A stretch of DNA of 64,000 nt from Holophagaceae bacterium (lineage in GTDB: Bacteria; Acidobacteriota; Holophagae; Holophagales; Holophagaceae): the NCBI GenBank assembly GCA_023257195.1, contig JALRCU010000009.1, positions 1 to 64,000 on the forward strand, written 5' to 3'. Made by a program: the position numbers and the translations under genes. The notes beneath the pieces were generated by a model. That model was not told the DNA's origin and ran no database searches. It worked only from the letters and a program-made list of their open reading frames with translations. This document shows positions 1 through 3,514 of the stretch, piece after piece (position 1 is the first letter of the stretch; each line of letters opens with the position of its first letter).

Positions 1-130
1 CTGGAAACCATTTATCCTGAAGGTCGCCATAATAATTACTTACACCACCCATAATGCCCACTTCGTTATGCGATTGTGCATTTGCAAATACAGGGATTGC
101 TAATAATAAACCAAGTAATAACTTTTTCAA
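1..130 (-). CDS. N-terminus of an outer-membrane beta-barrel protein, Bacteroidota-like (runs off window)
   Basis: Read on the minus strand from a TTG at 130, this frame encodes a classic signal peptide (MKKLLLGLLLAIPVFANAQ) and then SHNEVGIMGGVSNYYGDLQD, the start of a mature beta-barrel. From memory this closely resembles DUF6089-type outer-membrane proteins of Bacteroidota (Chitinophagaceae-like), which are not expected next to hemD. The stretch is A/T-rich, about 45 G+C in 120 bases by hand count. It is in frame with the upstream hemD start at 295, so the two halves form one open chimeric frame. It may be an assembly chimera or a genuine recombination junction; the sequence alone cannot decide. 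Confidence 0.55.
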   Translation of the reverse strand, partial: MKKLLLGLLLAIPVFANAQSHNEVGIMGGVSNYYGDLQDKWFP

Positions 131-295
131 AGTATTTTTAGAAAGGGCGTCATTTAATTGAGATGGGAGATCCCGATTAAAGGAAGAGACGGTGAGGGGG
201 AAAGAAATGGGCTTGTACCCTTCCCTAAGTAACATTTCAAAAATAGGGTCACCGGTAAATCGATTAATCAAGATGCCAGAGGTTAAAGATCTCAT
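131..295 (-). CDS. hemD: Uroporphyrinogen-III synthase N-terminal fragment (chimeric ORF)
   Basis: Uroporphyrinogen-III synthase closes and inverts ring D of hydroxymethylbilane in haem synthesis. The start ATG at 295 overlaps the hemC stop by 4 nt (ATGA), as expected for an operon. The first ~45 residues, including ILINRFTGDPIF and LLREGYKPISFPLT, match the usual HemD beginning (an 'ILxTRPxG ... LLxxxGxxxxxxPL' pattern). Just before the 'DWxxFTS' segment that should follow, the frame switches into the signal peptide of an unrelated outer-membrane protein. About 200 residues of HemD are therefore missing here. The identification rests on the short N-terminus and on position after hemA and hemC. 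Confidence 0.6.
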
Positions 296-1167
296 ATGAC
301 AAGTTCATTAGCGGTTTTATCGAGGAGCTCATCAAGATTCTTACCGGTATAACGCGTCTTAACAATTCGACGTTCATGGGCATACATGGAACGGAAACTA
401 AATAGATCATGATTTATTTTTTCAACAAGTACTCCCAGTGGCATTTGGCAACCGCCCCCAAGTTTTTTTAATAACATTCTTTCTGCATTGACGCACTCAG
501 TTGTCAAAGAATGGGAGAGTGGCTCAAGGCTGGCCTTAAGATCCTGATCCTCCACTCTAATTTCGGCAACGATGGCTCCTTGACCGGGAGCAGGCAAGCA
601 ATCGTCGAAAGAAATAGGGGTAACGTATAGCCCATTAAGATCGATGTTAAGTCTTTTAAGTCCTGCTGCTGCAAGGACGGTCCCCTGGATGGGTTGGCTG
701 CGAACACTTCCATTTTTTATACTAGCGACTCGAGTAGTTATATTGCCCCGGATCCATGTAAACTCAATTTTGGGCCAAGCTGCTTGAAGCATTTTTTCTC
801 TTCTTACTGAACTTGTAGCAATCTTTGTAATTTTTTCTAGTGGATGAGTATGAATGAGCCAGTCTGCCGGGTCAAAACGAGTGGGTATACAAGCAAATAT
901 CAACCCATCGGGACGAGAAACTGATAAATCTTTGAGACTATGAACAGCGACATCGATTTCTCTCGTGATGAGAGCTCGATCTATTTCTTTACTAAAGAAA
1001 TCATTTCCTCTTGATGGATCAAGAGGACCTTGTTGCCAGATATCCCCAGAAGTTGTAAATAACTTCCAACTTACTTTATAGCCTAGTTTGGCGAGTTGGT
1101 CATGGATAGGTGTAGCCTGGATCTTCGCCAATTCAGAAGACCGAGTTCCGATAATGCATGTCTTCAC
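292..1167 (-). CDS. hemC: Porphobilinogen deaminase (hydroxymethylbilane synthase)
   Basis: HemC polymerises four porphobilinogen molecules into hydroxymethylbilane in the cytoplasm. The 291-residue protein has the typical family length. It starts with IIGTRSSELAKIQ and carries the SLKD substrate-binding segment, the SSVRR motif (residues ~115-120) and the LPAPGQGAI segment. The motif GGGCQMPLG near residue 235 holds the cysteine that anchors the dipyrromethane cofactor. The ATG at 1167 overlaps the hemA stop by 4 nt and the stop overlaps the hemD start by 4 nt, so aroC-hemA-hemC-hemD is probably one minus-strand transcript with translational coupling. Confidence 0.96.
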   Translation of the reverse strand: MKTCIIGTRSSELAKIQATPIHDQLAKLGYKVSWKLFTTSGDIWQQGPLDPSRGNDFFSKEIDRALITREIDVAVHSLKDLSVSRPDGLIFACIPTRFDPADWLIHTHPLEKITKIATSSVRREKMLQAAWPKIEFTWIRGNITTRVASIKNGSVRSQPIQGTVLAAAGLKRLNIDLNGLYVTPISFDDCLPAPGQGAIVAEIRVEDQDLKASLEPLSHSLTTECVNAERMLLKKLGGGCQMPLGVLVEKINHDLFSFRSMYAHERRIVKTRYTGKNLDELLDKTANELVI

Positions 1168-2348
1168 GAAATATCCAACTTTAATATTTCGGCAACATTT
1201 TTAAGATGAGTGTCTGGCTCGAGTCCCTGAACAAGAGCGCGGTGGCTTAAGGTCCTCCCCCTGATAAGTAACTCTTGCACTGCAGCATATTGATCAGGTG
1301 TAAAGGCTTTCATATTTTTGACTTCATCTTCTAGTGCATCCCATGAAGCGCTGAGGGTTTCTCTTGCCGAAATCATAGACCGTCTTTTGGCTCTATCTTG
1401 CGAGCGTTTTCTGAGCCGCTGACTCGCTCCGAGAATAAACGGTTCGGCTTGAGATGATATTTCAATCCGGCGCTGACGATTGATGTCAGTCTCCATGAGA
1501 AAAACACCAAGGTCAACTCGATTTATCCATGGAAGTTGTTGTAATGCCGGTTCGGTATCTGCAGGGAGAGCGAGGTCAATAATGCGCAATGGTTTTCTCT
1601 TGGATATTCTCTTCCATTGCGTGAAAGTAAAAATAGGGGCGACGGAGCCGGTTGCAGTGATTAAGGCATCAAAACCTTGGGGGTCCTGCTGTACTTGTTC
1701 GAGGGGTATGGTGGAAACACCTAATTCATTACCCAATCTACCTATTTTGCTTTCTGTTCTGTTTGACAAGGTCACCCGATAGCCTTTTTTATGGAGTCTT
1801 CGAGCGATATATTGACTCATTGGGCCAAATCCAACAACCAAGATTGAAGAGTCGAGTGACAGAGCATTTTCCAAGTGTCTCAGTGCGGCTGTTGCAATAC
1901 TGGCTGTTCCATCGGCAAGACCCAATTTGGTTCTCAACCTTCTAGACTCCCGAATAATATCGGAAAGAACAGCCGATGATTCATCTCCAGACATGCCCAT
2001 TTCTTTTGAAATTTTTAAGGCATCATTCAGCTGGTCTGTAATTTCTCGATCCCCGACATTAGCACTCTCGAGGCCAGTAGCTAAGGACAATAAATGGGTC
2101 CAAGCATGAGGACCGCGTTTGACATGGGCATCGGTGAAATTTAGTAGTTCGGGCTTACCTCCCCAAAAGATCCATGTGGCTCTTTGGCAAGTCGAAAGAT
2201 AGATCATTTCATCAGCTAATGAAATATTCTTCCAATAGAGCATCCTTTGTGCAAGCCCTTCGCGGAAAATATGTCGGGCTACCACATCCAAATCGTGGTC
2301 AGGTGTTTGGTAGCTTACAACAATAGGATCCACAGATATAACTCTCAA
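1164..2348 (-). CDS. hemA: Glutamyl-tRNA reductase
   Basis: GluTR reduces glutamyl-tRNA(Glu) to glutamate-1-semialdehyde, the first step of C5-pathway haem synthesis. The catalytic cysteine lies in LSTCQRATW near residue 54 (family: LSTCNR-E-Y), and the NADPH domain begins at ILVVGFGPMSQYIARRL near residue 168. The C-terminal dimerisation region is helical. The protein is 394 residues, slightly short, and some conserved segments are degenerate: the usual 'GExQIxGQ' is here GDREITDQ. It sits between aroC and hemC with 4-nt overlaps on both sides. Identity is secure from the cysteine motif, the fold order and the partner genes, but the protein is divergent. Confidence 0.9.
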   Translation of the reverse strand: MRVISVDPIVVSYQTPDHDLDVVARHIFREGLAQRMLYWKNISLADEMIYLSTCQRATWIFWGGKPELLNFTDAHVKRGPHAWTHLLSLATGLESANVGDREITDQLNDALKISKEMGMSGDESSAVLSDIIRESRRLRTKLGLADGTASIATAALRHLENALSLDSSILVVGFGPMSQYIARRLHKKGYRVTLSNRTESKIGRLGNELGVSTIPLEQVQQDPQGFDALITATGSVAPIFTFTQWKRISKRKPLRIIDLALPADTEPALQQLPWINRVDLGVFLMETDINRQRRIEISSQAEPFILGASQRLRKRSQDRAKRRSMISARETLSASWDALEDEVKNMKAFTPDQYAAVQELLIRGRTLSHRALVQGLEPDTHLKNVAEILKLDIS

Positions 2349-3514
2349 TATCCATTATCTTGAATTTCATCGTCCTTGTCTCTTGGGAATCGTTGATTGT
2401 TGAATAATTCTAGATTTTGTAGATCCCAATCTCCTATGACTTGGGGGAAATTGGGATTCAGGGCCTGCTGAGTTAAGTATGCATCGTATACAACAATGGC
2501 TGCCATGGATTCAATTACTGGAACAACGCGAGGACAGATACAAGGATCATGGCGACCCCCAATCACAATATCAACAATTTCATTATCTTTATTACGCGTT
2601 TTTTGGGGTTTAGCAATGCTGCTCGTGGGTTTGACGGCGCATCTTACGACAAGAGGTGCTCCATCACTGATTCCCCCCAAAACACCCCCTGCATGTGAAG
2701 ACTGATAGGATTCTGTAGCTAGAGAGTCATTATTCTGACTTCCTCTTAATTTAGTTGAATCGAACCCAGAACCAAACTCTACCCCCTTTACGCTTCCAAT
2801 CGATAAGCATGCATAGCCCAATAAACCATCTAGCTTAGCAAACGTTGGATCTCCCAACCCAATAGGCAACCCCTCAATCCATAACTCGACAACCCCGCCT
2901 ACAGAGTCGCCTTCTAATTTAGCATTTTCAACCTCAGCTTTTTGGGCCTCGTAACAACTCGGATCTGCAGAGCGGAGAGGGTTTTTTTCTACAAAATCCC
3001 AATCGATTTTTTGGCATTTAACCCCTGCAATCTCTTTTGAATAGGCACGAATCGATACTCCTGCTCTCTTCAATTGAGATTTAGCCCAAGCACCAGCAGC
3101 TACCCGGGCGATCGTCTCGCGAGCCGAGCTCCGTCCTCCACCCCGAGGATCTCGAATACCATATTTTTTTTCATACGTAAGATCTGCATGGCCTGGTCGG
3201 AAGATCTCACGGAGGTTTTCATAATCAGAACTTTTCTGGTTCTGATTAAAGACGATAAGAGCAATGGGGTGTCCCGTAGTTTTACCTTCATAGACACCGC
3301 TCAGAATTTGAAGTTCATCATTTTCTTTTCTTGAAGTGGAGAGAAGATTAAAGCCGGGTCTCCTTCGATTTAATTCGGCCTGAATAGCACCTAAATCAAA
3401 TGAGAGGCCGGGTTTAATTCCGTCAATAACAACGCCAATCGCAGGCCCATGACTTTCTCCAAAGCTTAATATCTTAAAGGTCCGACCGAACGATGACGCA
3501 GAGTCAAAAAGCAT
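2345..3514 (-). CDS. aroC: Chorismate synthase
   Basis: AroC converts 5-enolpyruvylshikimate-3-phosphate to chorismate using reduced FMN. The 389-residue protein carries the family signatures in order: GESHGPAIGVVIDG near residue 20, RRRPG near 50, RPGHADLTYEKKYG with RDPRGGGRSSARET (residues ~107-133), and GGRHDPCICPR near 320. It leads the minus-strand operon with hemA, hemC and hemD, so chorismate synthesis and haem synthesis share a transcript; hemA starts 4 nt inside its stop. The ATG at 3514 is the natural start. The gene is divergent from scoB, with ~150 bp between them. Confidence 0.97.
   Translation of the reverse strand: MLFDSASSFGRTFKILSFGESHGPAIGVVIDGIKPGLSFDLGAIQAELNRRRPGFNLLSTSRKENDELQILSGVYEGKTTGHPIALIVFNQNQKSSDYENLREIFRPGHADLTYEKKYGIRDPRGGGRSSARETIARVAAGAWAKSQLKRAGVSIRAYSKEIAGVKCQKIDWDFVEKNPLRSADPSCYEAQKAEVENAKLEGDSVGGVVELWIEGLPIGLGDPTFAKLDGLLGYACLSIGSVKGVEFGSGFDSTKLRGSQNNDSLATESYQSSHAGGVLGGISDGAPLVVRCAVKPTSSIAKPQKTRNKDNEIVDIVIGGRHDPCICPRVVPVIESMAAIVVYDAYLTQQALNPNFPQVIGDWDLQNLELFNNQRFPRDKDDEIQDNGY

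Follow-up and report, generated by a model that had tools for sequence, protein, structure and literature searches.

The reading frame at the outermost end of contig C33, in which the start of a uroporphyrinogen-III synthase gene (hemD) runs into an outer-membrane protein, is almost certainly an assembly chimera: C33 ends in a tip of foreign Bacteroidota DNA, and the genuine remainder of hemD is located on C24, a second contig of this genome. The fusion at the contig end is no biological feature; in the organism, hemC, hemD and hemB follow one another in the usual order. The analysed window, a stretch of 64,000 nucleotides from a Holophagaceae genome, starts with base 1 of C33 (144,439 bp), hence its first base is a physical contig end. 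The source genome (G000) comprises 56 contigs and 1.2 Mb, with a listed estimate of 97 % completeness and 0.06 % contamination. Coordinates of the features are given in Table 1.

Table 1 Features at the start of the window
Feature	Position	Strand	Assignment and basis
DUF6089 outer-membrane-protein gene of a Bacteroidota, 5' end only (signal peptide and barrel start)	1..137	-	foreign; 100 % identity to Ww33
Breakpoint zone, shared 11 nt and two ambiguous bases	127..139		window, C24 and L029 compared with one another
First about 52 codons of hemD	140..295	-	genuine; 231-140 repeated exactly at the start of C24, where the gene runs on to its stop
hemC (porphobilinogen deaminase)	292..1167	-	genuine; Pfam PF01379, 3.6e-55; upstream neighbour of hemD; order as in G002
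hemA (glutamyl-tRNA reductase)	1164..2348	-	genuine; Pfam GlutR_N, 2.7e-13; order as in G002
aroC (chorismate synthase)	2345..3514	-	genuine; Pfam, 1.8e-126; order as in G002

The fusion frame and its breakpoint

The frame (2..295, minus strand) starts with ATG and stays open over 98 codons up to the window edge. Its start overlaps the hemC stop by 4 nt, as the first-pass annotation had described. Residues 1-55 were 62 % identical to HemD of the congener G002 (E = 4.7e-18), and the identity persisted to about residue 52-57. The HemD assignment made at first reading thus held, while the length of about 45 residues given there was slightly too short. From about residue 53 the frame reads KNTLKKLLLGLLLAIPVFANAQSHNEVGIMGGVSNYYGDLQDKWFP, a signal peptide followed by the beginning of a DUF6089-like protein. 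The frame remains open across the junction because the join happens in phase, for which the chance is roughly one in three, and because the frame enters an open gene start.

Eleven nucleotides, AAATACTTTGA (minus strand, window 137-127), are common to hemD on C24 and to the Bacteroidota gene at locus L029. The adjacent base 138 matches hemD but differs from the Bacteroidetes bacterium Ww33, base 139 matches Ww33 but differs from hemD; therefore the breakpoint lies somewhere in 127-139, without a finer placement. The two bases leave one mismatch to each source, which requires strain variation or an error in sequencing. A junction at about 130-150, as estimated from the window alone, had to be moved to this interval.

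Continuation of hemD on a second contig

A search of the rest of the genome for hemD, a check suggested with the first-pass annotation, revealed the remainder of the gene on C24 (34,817 bp), overlapping the hemD start of the window. The first 105 bases of C24 copy window positions 231-127 on the opposite strand with 104 identical bases (99 %): 92 exact matches (231-140), a mismatch at 139 and then 12 further matches. Past the overlap, C24 encodes HemD to a stop codon at 629 (L004, 3-629), directly followed by hemB, hemL, hemE, hemN and hemH, which were named from sequence and gene order rather than by family search. Joined together, the window codons and C24 yield a HemD of 230 amino acids, colinear over its whole length with the HemD of G002, which likewise has 230 residues. 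In this congener, aroC-hemA-hemC-hemD-hemB-hemL-hemE are uninterrupted on one contig. C24 was the only place in the source genome where HEM4 was found, with a score at the Pfam cut-off: the C24 part reached 26.3 bits for PF02602 against a cut-off of 27.5, the congener 27-28 bits and thus just over it. The position between hemC and hemB supports the HemD identity of the C24 part. Compared with the HemD family (PF02602), the first about 52 codons in the window are the organism's own hemD in the order hemC-hemD-hemB; the window copy differs in being cut by the chimera, with its remainder on C24, and in its divergence, close to the Pfam cut-off.

The HemD proteins of the genus (L004, 3-629; L016, 3302-3994) are divergent altogether. 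They score at or just under the HEM4 cut-off and match the profile only up to position 144 of 231. The genes also belong to a long heme cluster, aroC-hemA-hemC-hemD-hemB-hemL-hemE-hemN-hemH, spanning window 1-3514 (minus strand) and L004 1-6000, in which several genes overlap or abut; in G002 the cluster is kept from aroC into hemN.

Origin of the foreign tip

The source of the tip was sought in a public genome collection with a degenerate DNA pattern for NYYGDLQD, which returned 15 loci. Window 1-137 was 100 % identical over 137 bp to a MAG of the Bacteroidetes bacterium Ww33 (isolate Ww33; JAHEFK010000013.1, L029), so that the database search recommended at first reading for region 1-130 ended in a perfect match in its native place. 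A second MAG, labelled Chitinophaga pinensis, was 93 % identical to the tip. The Ww33 gene is complete and sits between tyrS and hisS; none of the neighbouring genes in the 8 kb examined is a hem gene. On its own, the window fragment matched DUF6089 (PF19573) with 12-14.5 bits, below the curated Pfam cut-off of 23.2, whereas the full Ww33 gene scored 71.4 bits. The DUF6089 identity of the tip is consequently based on the 100 % DNA match to this full gene and not on the fragment score, and it confirms the earlier observation that HemD passes, without a stop codon, into a signal peptide followed by the first part of a DUF6089-type Bacteroidota protein. With respect to that family, the tip corresponds exactly to the beginning of the Ww33 member, but the window carries only 46 residues of it, foreign to the host organism.

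The GC content was 35 % in window 1-138 versus 42-43 % in hemD and hemC. Within the source genome, the hemD overlap on C24 was the only substantial match of the tip. A DUF6089 search of the own genome retrieved nothing either, which is weak evidence, as control genomes were likewise silent. A related-locus search with the 48-residue tip query confirmed nothing, and a literature search on the donor record yielded nothing relevant.

Contig tips and the assembly k-mer

Contig tips were compared among the readable contigs of the source genome; contigs under about 3 kb read as N and were left out. Five pairs of tips shared an exact overlap, each of exactly 141 bp: C2_end/C6_end, C8_start/C54_end, C10_end/C46_end, C24_end/C26_end and C49_end/C54_start. 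Other exact tip overlaps of at least 20 bp were not found among the readable contigs. Exact overlaps of 141 bp are the mark of a de Bruijn assembly with a final k of 141, the default largest k of MEGAHIT. The foreign tip, with 137-139 bp, is about one 141-mer long. The five pairs are candidates for joining, or else forks of the k = 141 assembly graph.

Near-identical tip overlaps, about 148-369 bp long and with an identity of about 94-98 %, were present as well, among them C4_end/C47_end, C10_start/C41_start, C12_end/C56_end, C9_start/C26_start and C40_start/C48_start, suggesting strain variants in one bin or breaks caused by strains.

Probable formation of the chimera and alternative explanations

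Both halves of the frame have separate native contexts, hemD on C24 and in G002, the DUF6089 gene in Ww33, and the junction lies next to a contig edge. The assembly chimera, already favoured at first reading, was borne out by the C24 remainder, by the native locus in Ww33 and by a survey of 40 related genomes, none of which had a HemD-outer-membrane fusion. During assembly of the metagenome with k = 141, the end of C33 would have been carried beyond hemD, through a chimeric read or an edge in the graph, into about one k-mer's length of unrelated Bacteroidota DNA, the switch occurring in the shared stretch of 11 nt. The contig would then have been cut where the chimeric edge merges into the genuine Bacteroidota path, leaving a tip of about one k-mer. 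The exact step was more probably a chimera in a library molecule or read than a graph error, because 11 shared nucleotides do not suffice for a pure k-mer collision at the usual k. The Bacteroidota donor was presumably present in the same sample. The tip shares with known inter-species chimeric contigs of de Bruijn metagenome assemblies a foreign contig end near one k-mer, a short shared stretch at the breakpoint and a real continuation on another contig; a notable difference was not seen.

A minority of cells might instead carry a real and recent Bacteroidota insertion or recombination in hemD, expressing the fusion frame, while the others keep hemD intact. The continuous frame and the presence of both an intact and a fused hemD in one assembly would fit such a mixture. 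We regard it as very improbable, however: the foreign piece lies at a contig tip and has the length of about one k-mer, it matches, without a single difference, a gene that sits at its native chromosomal site in another phylum, mobile-element sequence was not seen, and without hemD the heme pathway would be interrupted. A genuine, lineage-specific gene fusing HemD to an outer-membrane protein, to which the in-frame join, the start codon and the 4-nt hemC overlap might point, is ruled out for practical purposes by the HemD remainder on C24 of the own genome, overlapping the start, and by the normal, intact HemD of G002; moreover, about 52-57 HemD residues before a signal peptide would make no working synthase.

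Conclusions

Having established that an almost certain assembly chimera terminates C33, we see its significance in quality control only: the terminal 139 bases of C33 are to be masked or trimmed, and hemD places C33 and C24 next to each other in the genome. Marker-based checks miss such tips, as the genome is listed at its low contamination value despite the foreign DNA. If the tip were left in place, an automatic annotation of the C33 end would report a spurious HemD-outer-membrane fusion or a spurious gene transfer across phyla.
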